NCBI GenBank assembly: GCA_030746455.1
Contig: JASLMQ010000081.1
Span: forward strand, 1-8,076
Direction of reading: 5' to 3'
DNA from: Candidatus Latescibacterota bacterium
GTDB lineage: Bacteria; Latescibacterota; UBA2968; GCA-2709665
Length of the DNA: 8,076 bases
In this document: positions 1 through 8,076 of the stretch, piece after piece
How positions within the stretch are numbered: the stretch's first letter is position 1
Layout of the letters: each line of letters opens with the position of its first letter
Notes under the pieces: model-generated
Database searches by the model: none
What the model was told of the DNA's origin: nothing
What the model saw: the letters and a program-made list of their open reading frames with translations, nothing else
Program-made: the position numbers and the translations under genes

Positions 1-27
1 GGGGTTCGACTCCCCTCGGGGTCACCA
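1..27 (+). tRNA. 3' end of a tRNA gene (partial, cut by window edge)
   Basis: The first bases form the T arm of a tRNA: a GGGG/CCCC stem (1-4 with 12-15) around the loop TTCGACT (5-11). The 3' acceptor strand CGGGGTC (17-23), discriminator A24 and an encoded CCA (25-27) follow. The rest of the tRNA, including the anticodon, lies to the left of the window, so the amino acid cannot be read. The 5' acceptor strand should be close to GACCCCG. The same 3' end recurs at 1573-1597, and a strong hairpin follows 15 bases downstream. Confidence 0.75.
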
Positions 28-42
28 ATTGAATCGATAATG

Positions 43-78
43 AACAGCCCTCCGGGATTGTCTTCCCGGGGGGCTGTT
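43..78. terminator. Strong hairpin between tRNA and ATPase gene, likely bidirectional terminator
   Basis: A 15-bp stem (43-57 with 64-78, one G-U type pair) encloses the 6-base loop TTGTCT. It lies 15 bases after the tRNA and 32 bases after the stop codon of the convergent ATPase gene, so it can end transcription from both sides. Neither side has a long T run, so termination efficiency is uncertain. It is homologous to the hairpin at 1615-1648. Confidence 0.55.
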
Positions 79-110: not shown

Positions 111-1361
111 TCAGGACAGCATCCAGGCGGCCGGTACCGCAGTGATCCCTTTATCCAGCACCTGAGCCCTCGGGTCATTCGACATCAACAGCGCGTGCAG
201 AACGGGCTTGTCCAGGATCGCGTCCAGGTTCCGCAGGTGTCTTGCGTCGGCCGGAGCGACGCGCTCCGCCATCTTGATCTCGATCGGTACAAATCCCTCG
301 TCGCATTCCAGGAGCAGATCGATCTCCCTGCCGTCGACCGTCCGGAGGTGATGGCAATGGACCGGGAGCCGGGCGTTGTTCACCTGCTTGTAGACCTCGG
401 CCACGACGGCGCTTTCGAACTCCTCGCCGGTGGGCTCCCCGCGTCGGCCGAGGAGCGCGCGCTGCACCCCCGGATCGATGAAGTGGACCCTGGGAGACTT
501 GACCAGCCTCTTGCCCAGGTTGCGGAACCACGGTTGAAGGAGAATGATCTGGTAGCTGATCTCAAGATACGTGATGAAACGCTTGGCTGTTGGTCCCGAG
601 ATACCCGACCGCCTGGCCAGACCCGACGTGTTGAGCAGGCGCCCCGTCAGCGTGGCAAGGGCCTTCTGCGCACGAACAAAGGGCTCAAGGTCGCGCAGGT
701 TGGCCAGATCTCGCACGTCTCGTTGGAGATAGGTCTGGATGTAGTTGCCAAGCCACTCGTATTTCTCCTCCGGAGCCAATGCAGCATCGGACAGGGCCGG
801 CATCGCGCCGAACCTGAGGTAGCCATCCCAGACTTGCTTCGCATTCGCGAAGCGCTCCTCCCGCTGCGGAATGCCCACCAGCTGATCCCCCGTTGCTCCC
901 TCCCGCAGCCAGCGGACCAGTCGGGACTCCTGGATCTCCTCCTCCCAGGAGTCTGTCAGAGATTCGGGGAGCGTAAGCGGGTAGAGTTCAACAAGAGAGG
1001 CTCGTCCCGCCAGGCTCTCTCGAACGCCTTTCAGCAACAGGATCTGGCTCGAGCCCAGGAGAATATGGCGAGTATCGGGGTACTGATCGTACGTGGCCTT
1101 GACGGACTCGATCAGACTCGGCGCCTTCTGCACCTCATCCAGGATTGCCACGGGATACTGCCGGTGCCACTGTGCCGCCGAAAGTCCCGTGAAGGCAGGC
1201 CGCACGACAGGATCTTCCAGAGAGATGTACTCGTGCTCTGGGAACCCCAGCCTTACGAGCGTGGTCTTCCCGGTCTGACGCGCCCCGGTGAGTACGACAA
1301 TGCGCCCGAACCTGGACTCCGCTCTGTCCTTCAGAAAGGCCAGCGCCGTTCGATTTCTCAT
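111..1361 (-). CDS. AAA ATPase with DUF4143 C-terminal domain (AAA_14/DUF4143 family)
   Basis: The 416-residue protein is full length for this family. The N-terminal P-loop ATPase shows Walker A GARQTGKTT (26-34), Walker B AILDEVQ (72-78) and a sensor-like strand HILLGSSQ (99-106). A winged-helix-like segment (about 240-270) follows. The C-terminal DUF4143 region carries REIDLLLE (345-352) and PIEIKMAE (359-366), a spacing that resembles the D...ExK core of PD-(D/E)XK nucleases. The family is widespread and poorly characterised; members are often found in accessory DNA and transferred between species, and a cellular role cannot be assigned here. The ATG has GGAG just upstream (about 7 bases) and a near-consensus promoter. 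The gene stands alone between two copies of a tRNA 3' end, which suggests acquisition by transfer. The ATPase assignment is firm; nuclease activity is inferred from the motif only. Confidence 0.93.
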   Translation of the reverse strand: MRNRTALAFLKDRAESRFGRIVVLTGARQTGKTTLVRLGFPEHEYISLEDPVVRPAFTGLSAAQWHRQYPVAILDEVQKAPSLIESVKATYDQYPDTRHILLGSSQILLLKGVRESLAGRASLVELYPLTLPESLTDSWEEEIQESRLVRWLREGATGDQLVGIPQREERFANAKQVWDGYLRFGAMPALSDAALAPEEKYEWLGNYIQTYLQRDVRDLANLRDLEPFVRAQKALATLTGRLLNTSGLARRSGISGPTAKRFITYLEISYQIILLQPWFRNLGKRLVKSPRVHFIDPGVQRALLGRRGEPTGEEFESAVVAEVYKQVNNARLPVHCHHLRTVDGREIDLLLECDEGFVPIEIKMAERVAPADARHLRNLDAILDKPVLHALLMSNDPRAQVLDKGITAVPAAWMLS

Positions 1362-2431: not shown

Positions 2432-3184
2432 TCAGATTGCCTCAGCAACGATGCCATAGTCGTCGTCGTAGCGGCCCGTGAACGGGCGCATGTCGTCGTC
2501 CCTGCCGTACATCTCGGCGATCTTGAACCCGGTCAGCCGGAAGAGCAGCTCGAACTCTGACAGGTAGGTGTGCCGGACCACTTCCCCGGTGGTCCCTTCC
2601 GGCCGCTCGATCTGGGTTAGCGCATCATACACCTTTACCTGTGTCGAGTAGACGGTATCTTCGGGCCACGCATAGGTGCCGGCCTGCTGTAGCTCGAGTT
2701 CGGCCTGTCTGTGCTCGGGCATGAAGACGTACAGGGCAAACGCTCCGCCAGGCTTCAGGTGTCTTCTCAGACACTCCAGAAATGCGATCTGGTCCGGCTG
2801 AGTGATAATCGTGGACCATGTGTAGCTCGGCAAGATCGCCAGGCCGAACTCCTGCCCAAGGTCGAAGTCGACCAGGTCTTGAACGTGGAAGCTTGCGTTC
2901 AGCCTCCTTCCCTCCGCCTTCAGCTGGCCGACCCGTTGATTCGCCCGTTCGATGAAGGTGGGGTTTATGTCGAAGCCGACGACTTCGCAGTCCGGGCAGA
3001 GCTCGGCCAATCCGATCGACCAGCGGCCATTCCCGCAGGCGGGATCCAGAATCGGACCTCCGTACTTCCCGGCACAGTACGTCCATAGTTTGTTCGTGAC
3101 AGAAACGCCGCGCTCCTCTTCCCATCGCTCGGCCGTTTCACGAGCTATCTGTTCGGCTCTCTCGGTGCGAATGGCGTTTGCCAT
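2432..3184 (-). CDS. Class I SAM-dependent methyltransferase
   Basis: The ATG at 3184 is chosen because AGGAGA lies 6 bases upstream; the frame is open to 3289 but lacks a ribosome site there. The 250-residue protein has a Rossmann-type methyltransferase core. Motif I is ILDPACGNGRWSIGLA (45-60), with the glycine-rich SAM loop. The acidic residue after strand 2 is D72 in VVGFDINP. LRRHLKPGGAFALYVF (139-154) corresponds to the post-core helix and strand 5. The C-terminus (219-227, GFKIAEMYG) is typical of small-molecule methyltransferases. The substrate is not evident: there is no DNA or rRNA target domain. About 30 N-terminal residues before the core form a charged helix. It is probably the first full gene of a unit with the downstream membrane protein. 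Confidence 0.9.
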   Translation of the reverse strand: MANAIRTERAEQIARETAERWEEERGVSVTNKLWTYCAGKYGGPILDPACGNGRWSIGLAELCPDCEVVGFDINPTFIERANQRVGQLKAEGRRLNASFHVQDLVDFDLGQEFGLAILPSYTWSTIITQPDQIAFLECLRRHLKPGGAFALYVFMPEHRQAELELQQAGTYAWPEDTVYSTQVKVYDALTQIERPEGTTGEVVRHTYLSEFELLFRLTGFKIAEMYGRDDDMRPFTGRYDDDYGIVAEAI

Positions 3185-3422
3185 GAGTATCTCCTGATGG
3201 TCTTCCGGTGAGGGCAAGTGAGCCCCCCTGCCTACGTGTGGACCCCGGAGCAATCCGGTCGGCCAGAATCGGCGCAGACGAGCGGGCATAGGGAATTGCG
3301 TCTTGATGGGAGGCCATTAGCGAACGGCAGTAGACGCGTGCTATGCCTGCGCCTTCCCCAAAACGCGAAACGGCCGCCTCTTGCAAAGCGACCGGAAGGC
3401 TTCCAAAGTCAGAAGTTGATCC
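3185..3422. other. 238-bp untranslated or remnant region upstream of the methyltransferase
   Basis: No convincing gene is present. On the minus strand the frame of the 18-codon ORF upstream stays open from its TGA to 3138, running through this stretch into the methyltransferase start. The encoded sequence resembles no family I recognise. Transcripts from the promoter at 3531-3558 would cross it as a long leader. A short palindrome, GGAAG-G-CTTCC, lies at 3394-3404. Confidence 0.4.
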
Positions 3423-3479
3423 TCAGAGCCAGCGCTGCAGGAGGCGTGACATCACTTGGACTATGGACAGTTTCCGCAT
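3423..3479 (-). CDS. 18-residue ORF with very strong RBS (possible leader peptide or gene remnant)
   Basis: The minus-strand ATG at 3479 is followed by 18 codons (MRKLSIVQVMSRLLQRWL) and TGA. It has an exceptional ribosome site: AGAAAGGAGGTG at about 3486-3497 is complementary to the 3' end of bacterial 16S rRNA over about 12 bases, with about 9 bases between GGAGG and ATG. A near-consensus promoter lies about 50 bases further up. The peptide is basic and amphipathic. It may be a regulatory leader peptide for the methyltransferase, a small functional peptide, or the start of a decayed gene, since the frame stays open for 94 codons after the TGA. No run of a single codon type that would indicate classical attenuation is seen. 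Confidence 0.45.
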   Translation of the reverse strand: MRKLSIVQVMSRLLQRWL

Positions 3480-3530
3480 CTGTCACCACCTCCTTTCTAG
3501 CGTGATGCAAAACCCTCCCCCAGAGAGAAC

Positions 3531-3558
3531 ACTATACTGTACCGGTGGTGGATGTCAA
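3531..3558 (-). promoter_or_regulatory. Near-consensus sigma-70 promoter reading toward the methyltransferase
   Basis: On the minus strand, -35 TTGACA (3553-3558, perfect consensus) and -10 TATAGT (3531-3536, five of six) are 16 bases apart. Transcription would begin near 3524, about 45 bases before the 18-codon ORF and about 340 bases before the methyltransferase. On the opposite strand TATACT (3533-3538) overlaps the same place but has no matching -35. Confidence 0.65.
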
Positions 3559-3814
3559 GCGACAAATCGACACGCGACGGCCTCAGATGCTTACCCAGAA
3601 GTTTCTGCCTGGTGCCCACTCCCCGCTTGCCTTGCGGTCCCGGACGCACTACCTTGCCACCATACCACAACGGCACAATACGGCCCGCGCCGGGACGGGA
3701 TACTGGATGCTTGATCGGGGGCCAGTTCCCAACAGCACAAAGCACCACAATGAGAGCAACGTGCGCGGAGGGGGCGAGGATGCCGAGACCCCGGTGACAC
3801 TGGAGGACCATCCG
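3559..3814. other. 256-bp intergenic region upstream of the decarboxylase-family gene
   Basis: A plus-strand frame is open from 3545 into the downstream gene, but its translation (Arg-, His- and Pro-rich, low complexity) resembles no protein and no ribosome site precedes its upstream starts. A weak plus-strand promoter candidate is TTGCCA (3654-3659), 17 bases, AATACG (3677-3682); the -10 is poor. Nothing else is recognised. Confidence 0.35.
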
Positions 3815-4663
3815 ATGAGCTATGCCTTCCGACCAAATGCGATGTACAGGATGCCCACGCATTTCGGGCCCAGCCTGGGACCGAGACAGGGAGTGGACGG
3901 GCGCAGATTCGCCTGCAGGAAGAACCCGAAGACAACCACGGTGTCGGTCAGCTTCCTGACGGGCCGGGAGCAGCTCGACCGGCTGCTGCCCGACGGTTTC
4001 CGAGTGGGTGAAGAGCCCGTGGTTACGGTCGCTGCATCCTACATGACTGAGATCGAGTGGCTGGCGGGTCGAGGCTACAACATCCTCGGCGTGAGCTGGC
4101 CGGCCGTGTTCCAGGGTGAGAGGGACAGGGCTGCGGGCAGCTTCCTGGCCGTGCTCTGGGAGAACATGTGCGACCCGATTCTGACAGGTCGAGAGGAGCT
4201 GGGCTACGCCAAGATGTGGGCGGAGATCCCCGAGCCGACCGTATGCGACGGCAGGACACACTGCACCGCAGGCTGGGAGGGATTCAGGTTTCTTGATATG
4301 GAAGTCAGGGACCTCAAGCCATCGTCAGTCGAGCCACCCGAAGCGGCAGCGGACGAAGCGACGGTAGACGAGACCCTTCGAGGCATCCTGCACTACAAGT
4401 ACATCCCGAGGACGGGAGACTGGGGTGCCGCGGATGTCGCCTACGCGGTCCTCACGCCGGCGGATGTGCCGAACCAGGTGGTGACCGAAAGCTGGGAGGG
4501 CGAGGGTTCGGTTGCCTTCCACAGCGCGACCTGGGAGGATATGCCCACGCAGTGCCACATCGTCAACGCGTTCCACGAGCTGGAGGTCAAGGAATTCCGA
4601 CGGGCGGAGGTCACCCGATCGGTTGGCAGCAAGGACCTGGGCGACCAGCGCGTTCTGCGGTAG
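3815..4663 (+). CDS. Acetoacetate decarboxylase family protein (ADC-like)
   Basis: The ATG at 3815 has GGAGG 8 bases upstream, which fixes the start and gives 282 residues, near the usual 240-280 for this family. The N-terminus reads MYRMPTHFGPSLGPRQG (10-26), typical of ADC-like enzymes. The central segment GREELGYAKMWAEIPEP (125-141) aligns with the active-site region, with K133 as the candidate Schiff-base lysine. Classical acetoacetate decarboxylases convert acetoacetate to acetone and CO2 and have two adjacent lysines; here the residue after K133 is Met. Other ADC-like enzymes with altered sites act as aldolases, dehydratases or on larger beta-keto acids, so the substrate is open. There is no signal peptide, so it is probably cytosolic. 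It has no same-strand partner in the window. The family call is confident, the reaction is not. Confidence 0.85.
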   Translation: MSYAFRPNAMYRMPTHFGPSLGPRQGVDGRRFACRKNPKTTTVSVSFLTGREQLDRLLPDGFRVGEEPVVTVAASYMTEIEWLAGRGYNILGVSWPAVFQGERDRAAGSFLAVLWENMCDPILTGREELGYAKMWAEIPEPTVCDGRTHCTAGWEGFRFLDMEVRDLKPSSVEPPEAAADEATVDETLRGILHYKYIPRTGDWGAADVAYAVLTPADVPNQVVTESWEGEGSVAFHSATWEDMPTQCHIVNAFHELEVKEFRRAEVTRSVGSKDLGDQRVLR

Positions 4664-4864: not shown

Positions 4865-5740
4865 CTAGTCCGCCTTCCGCAGCCACACATCTCCATTCGT
4901 GCTCCGCAATGTGATCACCGGACGGCCACCCGCCCCAATCGCGCCCACGATCCGATTCTTCCTCTGAGTAACTGAGGCCGTCACGGGAAAGTCCGAATTT
5001 GCCCGTCCTGTCGCCGTGCGGGCGTCCAGGCGTCCGGAAAATCCACCCGGAATCGCGACCGCCACGGCACCGTTCACGGCCGAGGCGGTGATCGGCATCT
5101 CGCCGTCTCGCACGGTCACATCCAGACTCCCGTTGACGGTCGCGAATCGTCCCTCGCCGCGAAGTTCGGCGACGTCGGCCGAAATCTGGCCGTTGGCCGT
5201 CCTCGCTTCGATCGGTCCACAGGCTCCCTTCACGTCGACCAGTCCGTTCGTCGTACGGGCCACCACTTCCCTTTCCATGTCCGCCACGTGGATCGCGCCA
5301 TTCACGGAACTCAGCTCGGCGGCAAGATCCGCGGGCGCGATGATGTCGAAGCGAACGGTCACGCCGACGTTCCTCGGCGGGTTTGGATGGGTTGCAAAAG
5401 CGACGACCTGATCGTTTCGACGCTCCACCGTCACCTCGATGTCCTGAAGGAAGTCCTCGGCGAGAGACCGGTTGGGGGCTTCGACCTTCTTGACGGCCTC
5501 GACCGTCACCTCGTCCCCGTCGGTCGCCCTCAACGATATCCGACCGTTGACGGTCTGCGCGACCAGTCTGGCGGCAGCAGCAGCGTCGACGGTCCGCGTC
5601 ACGGATTCGGTTTCGGTAACGCGGCCCCCGCCGGAGAAGCCGGACGACAAGACCTCCCCCGAGCTTCCGCATCCATACAGGGCAGCGACGATCATCACGG
5701 CGATGGGGAGGCAGTGCCGGTGCAGATTCTCGAATCGCAT
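4865..5740 (-). CDS. DUF4097-family beta-repeat lipoprotein (putative adhesin)
   Basis: The ATG at 5740 is preceded by AGGAGGAG about 4 bases upstream; the frame extends further (to 5875) but without a better start. The 291-residue protein starts with a signal peptide (1-23) ending in LYGC, a near-consensus lipobox, with C24 as the lipidated residue. It should therefore be anchored in the outer or inner membrane. The mature part contains repeats of a strand-turn-strand unit with a central Asn-Gly turn, at about 65, 147, 165, 183, 203, 223 and 282, plus a TATG variant at 243-245. Between about 145 and 225 the period is 18-21 residues. This is the pattern of the DUF4097 right-handed beta-helix-like fold. 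DUF4097 genes are often found beside ECF sigma/anti-sigma pairs, as here on the divergent side. The molecular function is unknown. Confidence 0.88.
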   Translation of the reverse strand: MRFENLHRHCLPIAVMIVAALYGCGSSGEVLSSGFSGGGRVTETESVTRTVDAAAAARLVAQTVNGRISLRATDGDEVTVEAVKKVEAPNRSLAEDFLQDIEVTVERRNDQVVAFATHPNPPRNVGVTVRFDIIAPADLAAELSSVNGAIHVADMEREVVARTTNGLVDVKGACGPIEARTANGQISADVAELRGEGRFATVNGSLDVTVRDGEMPITASAVNGAVAVAIPGGFSGRLDARTATGRANSDFPVTASVTQRKNRIVGAIGAGGRPVITLRSTNGDVWLRKAD

Positions 5741-5775: not shown

Positions 5776-5791
5776 GTTTCGATAGTGAAAC
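5776..5791. promoter_or_regulatory. Inverted repeat in divergent promoter region (possible operator)
   Basis: GTTTC (5776-5780) and GAAAC (5787-5791) form an inverted repeat with a 6-base spacer. It lies 36 bases upstream of the DUF4097 start codon, where a promoter or operator is expected. No consensus -10/-35 pair was recognised next to it. Confidence 0.3.
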
Positions 5792-5804
5792 ACCAGGAAG
5801 CCCC

Positions 5805-5819
5805 GGAGGTGTCACCTCC
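5805..5819. promoter_or_regulatory. Perfect 7-1-7 palindrome in divergent promoter region
   Basis: GGAGGTG-T-CACCTCC is a perfect inverted repeat between the divergent DUF4097 gene and the sigma factor operon. It may bind a dimeric regulator. The one-base loop makes an RNA hairpin of this exact form unlikely. Confidence 0.35.
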
Positions 5820-5942: not shown

Positions 5943-6036
5943 CATCGCATGGTTGACGGGGCCGAATGTCGGGAGGATGCATTCTGGAGTGACACTCTAG
6001 CAGCAGTGGGGTGTTACATCGGTGGAAGCAGGAAGA

Positions 6037-6513
6037 ATGGACATCGAGGAACTCTACAGACGATTCGGGCCGATGGTCGTGAGACGATGCCGACAGCTGC
6101 TCCGCGACGAGGATGACGCGAACGACGTTGCGCAGGACGTCTTCGTCCAGCTGATTCGGAACCAGGGACGGCTGAGAGACGACTATCCGTCGAGCCTGCT
6201 GTATCGAATCGCCACGAACCTCTGCCTGAACCGTATCCGAGACCGCCAGCGAATGCTGGAAGACCGTGTCGAAGATGACATACTCTCCAGCATCGCAAGC
6301 TCCGATGTGGACGAACGGCAACTTGAGGCCCGGAGCATCCTCGATCGACTCTTCAGAGGACAGCTCGAGTCGACGCGCACAATGGCCGTTCTCTACTACG
6401 TGGATGGACTGACGCTGGAAGAAGTGGCGGAGGAAGTGGGGATGTCCGTGTCCGGCGTGCGGAAGCGTCTGCGAGGACTGCGGGGAAGCCTGAAGGACCT
6501 GGAGGAGCCATGA
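6037..6513 (+). CDS. ECF-type sigma-70 family RNA polymerase sigma factor
   Basis: The ATG at 6037 has AGGAAG close upstream and gives the usual ECF opening MDIEELYRRFGPMV. A GTG at 6022 is an alternative. The 158-residue protein contains only regions 2 and 4. Region 2 spans about 5-70, with DANDVAQDVFVQLI (28-41) for core RNA polymerase binding and LYRIATNLCLNRIRDRQR (55-72) for -10 recognition. A short linker follows, then region 4 (about 96-153) with the helix-turn-helix LTLEEVAEEVGMSVSGVRKRL (126-146) for -35 recognition. It directs transcription of a dedicated regulon. Its stop codon overlaps the next gene's ATG by 4 bases, indicating translational coupling with a cognate regulator. The target promoters are unknown. 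Confidence 0.93.
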   Translation: MDIEELYRRFGPMVVRRCRQLLRDEDDANDVAQDVFVQLIRNQGRLRDDYPSSLLYRIATNLCLNRIRDRQRMLEDRVEDDILSSIASSDVDERQLEARSILDRLFRGQLESTRTMAVLYYVDGLTLEEVAEEVGMSVSGVRKRLRGLRGSLKDLEEP

Positions 6514-7280
6514 ACCGGGACAACGAACACGCGATCTTAGAGCTCAAGCTGGAGCGGTACGTGGCCGCAGACCTGCCCCAGGAAGAGATGGACCGGATCC
6601 ACAGACTGGTCGAATCCGACGCTTACCTGAGAAATCGGGTAGACGCGCTCGTGCGATCGAACGAAGAGATCCTCGAGGAGCGCCCCCCGGCGTGGGTCGC
6701 CCGTCAGATCAGGATGCGTCTCGAGGGTGAGCCCGCTGAGCCATCGGGCGCCGTCTGGTGGAAGTGGGCGCTGCCGGTCGTCCCGATCGCGGCTGCGGTC
6801 ATCCTGATGGTGATGAGTTACGACACAATCGATCGATCCCCGTGGACCGGCATCAAGGGTCTGGAGCCAACGCTCGTGCTCTATCGTCAGTCGGACCGCG
6901 GGGCGGAAAGGCTTGCCGACGGGGTGAGCGCGGCCCAGGGCGATCGGATCCAGATCGTCTACAACGCGGCGGGAAAGCGGCACGGCGTCATCTTTTCGGT
7001 CGACGGACGAGGCCAGATCACGCAGCATCTTCCGGAGCGGGGAGACCGTTCGGTCGAACTCCGCCCGGGTAGGCTCGATACGCTGGATTTCGCCTACCGG
7101 TTGGACGACGCGCCGCGGTTGGAGCGATTCTACCAGATCGCCGCGGACTCGGCGTTCGAGGCCCGTCCGATCCTCGACGCCGCTCGTGAAGCCGCCCTGA
7201 ATGACACGGTGACAGCATCACGTCCACTTCCACTGCCATCCGGATACAGCCAACACGTCAAGACGTTGACAAAGGAGTAG
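6510..7280 (+). CDS. Single-pass membrane putative anti-sigma factor
   Basis: The gene starts in an ATGA overlap with the sigma factor stop. Residues 1-84 are cytosolic, charged and helical (for example LELKLERYVAADLPQEEMDR at 10-29), as in sigma-binding anti-sigma domains. One transmembrane segment lies at about 85-103 (ALPVVPIAAAVILMVM). The rest (about 104-256) is predicted to be periplasmic and mostly beta (LVLYRQ at 122-127, RIQIVYNAAG at 146-155, GVIFSVDGRGQI at 159-170), resembling the DUF4384-type domains found beside bacterial caspases. The protein has no cysteine, so the zinc HxxxCxxC motif of the common ZAS anti-sigma class is missing. The role is inferred from position, topology and helical N-terminus. 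The gene's last bases carry the SD of the caspase gene. Confidence 0.75.
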   Translation: MNRDNEHAILELKLERYVAADLPQEEMDRIHRLVESDAYLRNRVDALVRSNEEILEERPPAWVARQIRMRLEGEPAEPSGAVWWKWALPVVPIAAAVILMVMSYDTIDRSPWTGIKGLEPTLVLYRQSDRGAERLADGVSAAQGDRIQIVYNAAGKRHGVIFSVDGRGQITQHLPERGDRSVELRPGRLDTLDFAYRLDDAPRLERFYQIAADSAFEARPILDAAREAALNDTVTASRPLPLPSGYSQHVKTLTKE

Positions 7281-7284
7281 CGCC

Positions 7285-8076
7285 GTGACCTGCCAAACTG
7301 CCTTTTCCAGAATGGGTATCTGGCTTATCGCTCTGGCGACTTTGGCCTCGGGCCCGGCCGAGGGAGCAACAGTTGAACGTTTGGTCCTTGCGGCCGGCGC
7401 GAACAACGGGGGCAAGGAGCGCGCGTCGCTGAGGTACGCGATCTCGGACGCGGAGCACTTCACGCGTGTGATGGAAGGGATGGGGGGGGTCGAGCCGGAT
7501 CGACGCATCCTGTTGAAGGAACCGCGTGTGGGTGATCTGTCCAGTGCGTTGAGTCAGGTCAAGGAAACCGTCCGGCAAACACGGAAGCCCGGGGACCGTG
7601 TGGAGCTCATCTTCTACTACTCCAAACATGCGGACGAGACCGGCTTGCTTCTCGGAGGGGATCGCCTCACCTATCAGTCCCTGCGTGACCAGCTCGACGC
7701 GGTTCAGGCGGACGTGCACATCACCGTCCTGGATGCCTGTGCGTCGGGCGCCATCACGCGCATCAAGGGCGGCGACCGGCAGAAGGCGTTTCTTGTGGAC
7801 GAATCTTCTCAGATGCGCGGGCACGCGTTCCTCACGTCGAGCTCCGAGGATGAGGTCGCGCAGGAATCCGATGTCATTGGAGGGTCTTACTTCACGCACC
7901 ACCTGGTGTCCGGTCTTCGAGGTGCCGCGGACTTCTCCGGCGACGGCAAGGTCACCCTCGGGGAAGCGTATCAGCATGCCTTCCACGAAACGCTCGCGCA
8001 AACAACGGACACACGGTCGAGCGCCCAGCATCCCGCCTACGACATCAACCTCGCGGGGACCGGTGACTTCGTCATG
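7285..8076 (+). CDS. Secreted caspase-fold (peptidase C14) protease, 3' end outside the window
   Basis: The frame is open from GTG at 7285 to the last base (264 codons). AAAGGAG (7271-7277) lies 7 bases upstream, inside the end of the preceding gene. The first ATG (7312) has no SD. Residues 1-28 form a signal peptide (R9, hydrophobic 11-22, cleavage near AEG/A). The caspase domain covers about 32-264. The catalytic His is H115 in FYYSKHADE, and the catalytic Cys is C152 in TVLDACASG. RGHAFLTSSSEDEVAQESD (178-196) and GGSYFTHHLVSGLRGAAD (199-216) match the caspase-like family of myxobacteria and relatives. DFSGDGKVTLGE (216-227) is a complete EF-hand-type calcium loop. The usual YYSGH has Lys for Gly before the His. 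Family members commonly continue into further C-terminal domains, here not visible. Substrate unknown; export suggests the periplasm or outside. Confidence 0.9.
   Translation, partial: MTCQTAFSRMGIWLIALATLASGPAEGATVERLVLAAGANNGGKERASLRYAISDAEHFTRVMEGMGGVEPDRRILLKEPRVGDLSSALSQVKETVRQTRKPGDRVELIFYYSKHADETGLLLGGDRLTYQSLRDQLDAVQADVHITVLDACASGAITRIKGGDRQKAFLVDESSQMRGHAFLTSSSEDEVAQESDVIGGSYFTHHLVSGLRGAADFSGDGKVTLGEAYQHAFHETLAQTTDTRSSAQHPAYDINLAGTGDFVM

Follow-up and report, generated by a model that had tools for sequence, protein, structure and literature searches.

To our knowledge, the role of most bacterial caspase homologs is unknown, cell death being the usual guess. The DegS/RseA/RpoE pathway is a case of regulated proteolysis of a membrane anti-sigma factor. 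Here, we analyze a locus in which these two themes may meet: three adjoining genes for an extracytoplasmic function (ECF) sigma factor, a membrane anti-sigma factor, and an exported caspase of family C14, found in a stretch of 8,076 nucleotides (nt) from Candidatus Latescibacterota bacterium (GenBank assembly GCA_030746455.1, contig JASLMQ010000081.1), referred to below as the window. The likeness to DegS/RseA/RpoE, as described in the consulted parts of PMC10028731, lies in an ECF sigma factor held by a one-helix membrane anti-sigma factor and in a periplasmic first cut, which we propose for this locus; there, however, the protease is a PDZ serine protease, whereas here a C14 caspase encoded in the same operon and carrying an outer-membrane barrel would take its place. 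In Craspase (Csx29/Csx30/CASP-sigma), according to the same parts, a caspase-clan protease cuts the inhibitor of an ECF sigma factor, as we predict here; yet that system is cytoplasmic and RNA guided and has a CHAT domain, in contrast to an exported C14 caspase and a membrane anti-sigma factor.

Caspase-like genes near ECF sigma genes have been described in two further settings. ECF54 has CHAT, subtilase, or carboxypeptidase neighbors and, unlike the present locus, is proposed in the consulted parts of PMC8999054 to act without an anti-sigma factor; in those of PMC8195603, which reports EACC2 loci that combine a caspase and an ECF sigma factor, the term anti-sigma does not occur. A 2012 study (PMC3501461) reports, in the parts consulted, a caspase homolog and a sigma-70 gene in one operon for four of the five metacaspases of M. 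xanthus, and further sigma/metacaspase operons in Anaeromyxobacter, Haliangium, Sorangium, Ralstonia, and Fibrobacter. These operons are probably the same system as ours, at least in myxobacteria, and the consulted parts mention no anti-sigma factor, membrane location, promoter, targets, or cut site for them. Our literature search, in the portions of the sources that it reached, found no promoter and no cut site for sigma/metacaspase operons, nor a link between these operons and an anti-sigma factor; among these sources, a caspase is tied to an anti-sigma factor only in Craspase (PMC10028731). A description of the group in the 2021 ECF reclassification is possible.

We consider it probable that the three genes form a module of protease, anti-sigma factor, and ECF sigma factor for monitoring the cell envelope, with the exported caspase as the first protease to cut the anti-sigma factor. 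This reading draws on gene order, conservation, a promoter-like site and the genes behind it, Lys-Gly motifs, and predicted folds, all of which were computed; from these, we infer cleavage with its place and direction, a signal, later proteolysis, and binding of the sigma factor at the site. Protease-controlled sigma release is a known kind of regulation, and what would be new is an outer-membrane caspase as the likely first protease. For one large bacterial caspase family, a substrate and its cut site, a promoter, and a set of target genes are now predicted; a role in transcription control is therefore directly testable, probably also in Myxococcus xanthus, given the operons found in the consulted parts of PMC3501461. 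If the reading is right, a protease fixed in the outer membrane would be a new class of first-step protease for bacterial sigma release, and cell-envelope genes would be switched on by a protein family associated with cell death.

The three genes of the locus

All three genes lie on the plus strand. The ECF sigma gene (6037..6513; PF04542, 4.1e-15; TIGR02937, 6.8e-23) runs from ATG 6037 to TGA 6513 and shares 4 bp with the anti-sigma open reading frame (ORF), which runs from ATG 6510 to TAG 7280 (6510..7280). After a 4-bp gap, the caspase gene (7285..8076) starts with GTG 7285, preceded by AAAGGAG within the last codons of the anti-sigma gene, and is cut by the window end. The tight coupling described by the first-pass annotation, with a 4-bp overlap, a 4-bp gap, and the last Shine-Dalgarno sequence inside the preceding gene, is borne out by these coordinates.

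The caspase fragment has a hydrophobic, export-type start, matches PF00656 above the cut-off (3.7e-7), and retains His115 and Cys152, the catalytic dyad present in 82/82 linked caspases, which places it in family C14. Membership in EACC1 was set aside (NF047832, the EACC1-type model, gives 59.5 bits against a cut-off of 140), and a sequence search of solved structures with this protein gave no match up to E 1. The anti-sigma protein falls under every curated cut-off (DUF4384, 0.0017; NCBIfam anti-sigma, 0.014). A role in defense or CRISPR was also set aside: PADLOC models gave no match for four window proteins, and a direct-repeat search found no CRISPR-like array within the window. The CRISPR-linked modules named in the first-pass annotation serve as analogues only.

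Conservation of the triplet

A caspase-based scan of genome contigs recovered two relatives, L001 (labeled Acidobacteria bacterium, a metagenome-assembled genome [MAG]) and L002 (labeled Proteobacteria bacterium isolate Deltapro3, MAG), with the three genes in the same order as in the window. The window sigma factor is 59% identical to that of L001 and 48% identical to that of L002. A profile of the three anti-sigma proteins (A1) matched in 47 of 396 genomes of L001's phylum, ten of them strong and full length, L001 included, and in 169 of 377 genomes of L002's phylum. The close set (n = 64 loci) comprised these ten strong matches, those of L002's phylum down to E 7.4e-28, and the window, L001, and L002; a distant set was made of 20 of the 35 listed anti-sigma matches spanning E 2.4e-27 to 4.9e-16.

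Sigma, anti-sigma, and caspase genes adjoin in that order on one strand in 53/64 close loci, the window included, and all three genes are present in 20/20 distant loci (in L122 and L243, spurious side matches with domain E values of 150 and 36 were discounted, the sigma gene being in place in both). Among the remaining close loci, the sigma gene is missing at a contig end in five (L107, L108, L118, L121, and L124), and the caspase gene lies close by in L067, L117, and L127, either ahead of the sigma gene or in divergent orientation; L101 likewise has a divergent caspase gene, on a contig that stops behind the anti-sigma gene. In L119 the caspase gene is absent from the locus, and a caspase gene with its own promoter-like site stands elsewhere in the same genome (L184). 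Finally, L120 (4230-4850) is an anti-sigma ectodomain homolog with neither sigma nor caspase beside it, and its genome, G471, has zero exact promoter-like sites. The arrangement, found in the same order in dozens of genomes from two phyla, is well beyond chance, and the persistence of the caspase beside the pair, on which the first-pass annotation had staked its proposal, survives this comparison.

Protein searches, in each of which roughly the 8,000 best candidates were scored, returned 111 relatives of the anti-sigma protein, a few of them labeled Gemmatimonadota, Spirochaetales, Myxococcota, or as named myxobacteria, and 4,847 relatives of the full-length L001 caspase among 7,996 candidates. 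Three anti-sigma relatives (P0019, P0092, and P0105) carry the source names ActD or ActD-like. ActD is encoded in the act operon of Myxococcus, which controls C-signal; a literature search on the act operon did not settle this link and did not find the term actD in the papers it listed. The L108 contig contains a second anti-sigma ectodomain match (3238-3651) some 1.7 kb past the caspase domain, perhaps a duplicated module.

A basic-Gly site in the anti-sigma linker

An AlphaFold2 model of the window anti-sigma protein (74-row alignment; mean predicted local distance difference test [pLDDT] score, 84.9) shows four cytoplasmic helices at residues 11-72, a membrane helix near 93-103, and a beta domain at 121-255. 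The charge around the membrane helix follows the positive-inside pattern in 58 relatives. The protein beside the ECF sigma factor is thus predicted to have a cytoplasmic N-terminal domain, one membrane helix, and a periplasmic domain. HxxxCxxC, which we take to be the zinc anti-sigma motif, occurs in 7/20 distant and 2/58 close relatives, and it is because of position, model, and this motif in some relatives that we identify the protein as an anti-sigma factor. A fold search gave one match below E 0.001, an unrelated zona-pellucida-type domain.

Between membrane helix and beta domain, residues 104-120 lack structure in the model (pLDDT below 50 at 105-114; mean, 58 at 111-120). This linker contains Lys116-Gly117 (codons at 6855..6860, plus strand), our proposed cut site. 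In an alignment of 58 full-length anti-sigma proteins, from which L120 and other partial ones were excluded, the first position is Lys in 57 and Arg in one, and Gly is invariant (58/58), while the stretch from the membrane helix to the Lys varies in sequence and in length (9-39 residues; median, 22). An Arg stands two residues ahead of the pair in 41/58, and both Lys and Gly are invariant in 74 database anti-sigma proteins (set A5). The distant clade (n = 20) has Lys-Gly in 14, Arg-Gly in four, and Lys-Ser and Arg-Thr-Ser-Gly in one each; hence, the basic residue is present in 20/20 and is followed by Gly in 18. Lys-Gly is missing from L120 and from six weaker, caspase-less matches to related domains (L031, L032, L036, L038, L043, and L045), several of which we take to be protein kinases. 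In these controls, which are few and distant, the site appears to track the presence of a caspase. The caspase-controlled sigma switch envisaged by the first-pass annotation has in this way gained a conserved triplet and a candidate cut site that follows the caspase in the controls, with cleavage itself being predicted.

Alternatively, Lys-Gly could be kept for the fold of the anti-sigma protein or for another protease, while the caspase only binds the anti-sigma factor, as an outer-membrane receptor would. The pair does lie just four residues ahead of the first strand of the model, and Lys255 near the C terminus (residues 255-256, window positions 7272-7277) is equally conserved (Lys, 57/58; Arg, 1/58). 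However, a linker that is unstructured in the model and variable in length, an exchange of Lys and Arg that is tolerated, the loss of Lys-Gly in the caspase-less controls, and a catalytic dyad kept in 82/82 caspases all argue against this explanation, which we regard as improbable.

The same motif behind the catalytic Cys of the caspase

In the caspase, the catalytic His115 (7627..7629) and Cys152 (7738..7740) are both invariant among the 82 linked proteins. Nine residues past the Cys lies an R-x-K-G stretch (Arg159-Ile-Lys161-Gly-Gly; codons at 7759..7773), in which Lys is kept in 80/82, with Arg and Glu replacing it once each, and Arg159 in 77/82; it falls in a region without structure in the L001 model (152-185) and may form a self-cleavage loop. 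R-x-K-G occurs in 0/16 distinct loops read from 23 control caspase matches in module-free genomes. Within one genome (G002), it is found in the caspases of L002, L005, and L007, each with sigma and anti-sigma genes beside it, and not in that of L006, where no sigma or anti-sigma gene lies within the 3 kb examined. In L090, the sole Arg-for-Lys anti-sigma protein of the 58 adjoins the sole Arg-for-Lys caspase of the 82; this is one event. We take R-x-K-G to be the likely recognition sequence both for self-cleavage of the caspase and for the cut in the anti-sigma factor.

Asp150, two residues ahead of the Cys and also present in 82/82, presumably corresponds to Asp211 of TbMCA2. According to PMC4357240, Arg and Lys are the residues after which metacaspases cleave, and the S1 residues named there include Asp211 of TbMCA2. 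An invariant Asp150 fits metacaspase-type cleavage after either residue.

Predicted location of the caspase

Because the caspase gene of the window is cut, we modeled the full-length protein of L001 (mean pLDDT, 70.5). The model has an export helix (residues 2-16), a caspase domain (25-235), a beta-sandwich (270-346), and eight long strands (370-553), for which Foldseek returned OmpA, Ail, OmpX, and OmpW (best E value, 4.5e-9; target template modeling score, 0.71). The outer-membrane barrel family PF13505 was detected in 3/57 caspase relatives at E 0.01 and is assigned to 26 of the top 120 matches of the L001 caspase search. Outer-membrane barrel proteins often end in Phe, as do 38 of the 76 caspases in which the domain is followed by 150 or more residues. 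We infer a barrel of this kind for the window caspase itself.

An OmpA-like barrel of this kind leaves an N-terminal domain in the periplasm. The claim of the first-pass annotation that the caspase and the anti-sigma ectodomain share one side of the membrane agrees with the modeled barrel of the L001 relative; the barrel itself had escaped that annotation because the gene is cut in the window. Surface signaling of the FecA/FecR/FecI type was set aside, given that the L001 barrel is eight stranded and resembles OmpA, OmpX, and OmpW and that no TonB-receptor family is among the Pfam matches of 57 caspase relatives.

The barrel might also serve as the sensor. Correct insertion into the outer membrane would then keep the protease away from the inner membrane, while upon failed outer-membrane assembly, caspase left unassembled would accumulate in the periplasm and cut itself at R-x-K-G and the anti-sigma factor at the same motif, raising its own synthesis through the sigma factor. 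In this way, the caspase would act as an alarm that reports its own failed assembly; we offer the idea tentatively and think it unlikely.

A promoter-like site and the predicted regulon

A site with the core TGACAC-N15-GTGT, with exactly 15 bases between the two boxes, precedes the sigma gene in the window and in both L001 and L002; its window copy reads AGTGACAC-N13-GGGTGTT (5988..6015, plus strand; core at 5990-6014). A second exact core, on the minus strand (5790..5814), lies 49 nt ahead of the ATG at 5740 of a divergent gene (4865..5740, minus strand) whose DUF4097 (toastrack) product (PF13349, 2e-6) starts like a lipoprotein (ALYGC); we predict this gene to be a target. Neither the site nor this target featured in the first-pass annotation. 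With at most one mismatch, the window has three sites against 0.35 expected, one of them being the first site read on the opposite strand.

Full upstream sequence was available for 56 loci. In 42 of them, a site with no more than one mismatch lies within 180 nt ahead of the sigma gene, compared to a mean of 0.27 loci and a maximum of 1 in 60 dinucleotide shuffles. The 15-base spacer accounts for these 42, and spacers of 11-14 and 16-19 bases gave 0 to 7 loci. To judge from its position, the site would make the sigma gene autoregulated.

We then searched whole genomes with the stricter pattern RGTGACAS-N13-SGGTGTY. The 61 module genomes (those with a strong anti-sigma match) contain 110 exact sites, with nine for the backwards pattern, and 43 of the 61 have at least one; 40 module-free genomes of both phyla contain three, with two backwards. 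The per-base excess in module genomes is about fifteenfold (about 409 versus 173 Mb, rounded sizes), a figure that includes the sigma-gene sites from which the pattern was learned. Two genomes, G613 and G749, carry seven and nine exact sites, many of them ahead of lipoprotein-like genes.

The core is partly palindromic, with one mismatch to its own reverse complement, which would suit the operator of another dimeric regulator rather than a promoter of this sigma factor. Against this stand its promoter-like distance from the genes behind it (median, 24 nt for 72 non-module genes), its position upstream of the sigma gene itself, and its rarity in module-free genomes, and we hold an operator to be very unlikely.

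Of the 105 sites read, 33 lie ahead of module genes (ORF picking took the anti-sigma frame at seven of these) and 72 ahead of others. For these 72 genes, the distance to the start codon is at most 100 nt in 66; by simple rules, 25 encode a lipobox and 46 a hydrophobic start, compared to 70 and 189, respectively, in 1,500 frames picked likewise at random places. Pfam families were assigned for 58 of the 72: DUF2807 (nine), DUF4097 (four), beta-lactamase (three), and Bor (three), followed by MotA/ExbB, TSP3, S41, copper monooxygenase, barrel, and cytochrome families with one or two each. The other 14 were omitted as doubtful or cut ORFs (L074, L101, L166, L168, L169, L170, L179 at 3091, L180, L187, L189, L190, L198, L214, and L225); that of L168 resembles a regulator gene and was perhaps wrongly excluded. 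The lipobox, hydrophobic-start, and Pfam profiles therefore make it most likely that the sigma factor drives genes for envelope and secreted proteins. In two genomes (L078:9820-10470 and L194:3108-3725), a site lies 76 nt ahead of a gene for an ExbB/MotA-like proton channel, and the regulon may include energized envelope machinery.

The main rival explanation is that the caspase is merely an output: the sigma factor would induce an outer-membrane protease for envelope remodeling or killing, and some other protease would handle the anti-sigma factor. The caspase gene is indeed part of the sigma factor's own operon, it has a site of its own in L067, L101, and L184, and other target genes also encode exported proteins. 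Yet the caspase stays beside the anti-sigma gene across phyla, whereas no such recurrence at the locus is seen for other targets, and R-x-K-G is common to caspase and anti-sigma protein while being absent from L120 and from unlinked caspases. We therefore consider an output-only caspase doubtful and prefer the reading in which it makes the first cut.

Proposed mechanism

With the caspase as the first protease, the module could work as follows. At rest, the anti-sigma factor would span the inner membrane and bind the sigma factor through its cytoplasmic helices. The caspase would be exported and, judged by its full-length relatives, anchored in the outer membrane by a C-terminal eight-stranded barrel, its catalytic domain lying in the periplasm. 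Activation of the caspase by a signal would probably involve self-cleavage behind the Lys of the R-x-K-G loop. The next cut made by the caspase would fall after Lys116 of the anti-sigma factor, in the linker close to the outer face of the membrane, and would remove the beta domain; the stub would then be cleared by general proteases (for example, a site-2 protease of family M50), which would free the sigma factor. PF02163, the site-2 protease family, is present in 20/20 module genomes tried and likewise in 14/14 control genomes, so that it does not set module genomes apart. Once free, the sigma factor would transcribe its own operon and the divergent DUF4097 gene from the TGACAC-N15-GTGT promoters, as well as, in relatives, many genes for secreted proteins.

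Several observations weigh against this scheme. Lys255 matches the Lys of the proposed cut site in conservation, yet cleavage does not account for it. The four Arg-Gly anti-sigma proteins of the distant clade stand beside Lys-loop caspases, so that there the loop does not follow the anti-sigma factor. The window caspase itself has Lys114 (7624-7626) just ahead of the catalytic His, where 81/82 have Gly, and may be impaired or altered through it. The caspase half of the full-length L001 model is weak, with loops below a pLDDT of 50, and an outer-membrane caspase would have to reach across the periplasm to an inner-membrane anti-sigma factor. Lastly, 18/61 module genomes have no exact site at all, and the separated caspases carry a sigma site of their own, as expected of an output.

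Other features of the window

Two direct repeats in the window (3-77 and 1573-1648, about 1,570 nt apart; 25 nt at 92% and 50 nt at 78%) resemble the 3' end of a tRNA with CCA followed by a terminator-like hairpin, and ARAGORN found no complete tRNA in the window. The repeats bracket a gene for an ATPase of the AAA_14/DUF4143 kind (111-1361, minus strand), and the element between them is perhaps a small insertion at a tRNA gene. Farther along, the window encodes a methyltransferase (2432-3289, minus strand), whose top NCBIfam match, below the cut-off, is a methyltransferase of daptides (ribosomally synthesized and posttranslationally modified peptides), and a protein of the acetoacetate decarboxylase family (3545-4663, plus strand; PF06314, 4.5e-28).

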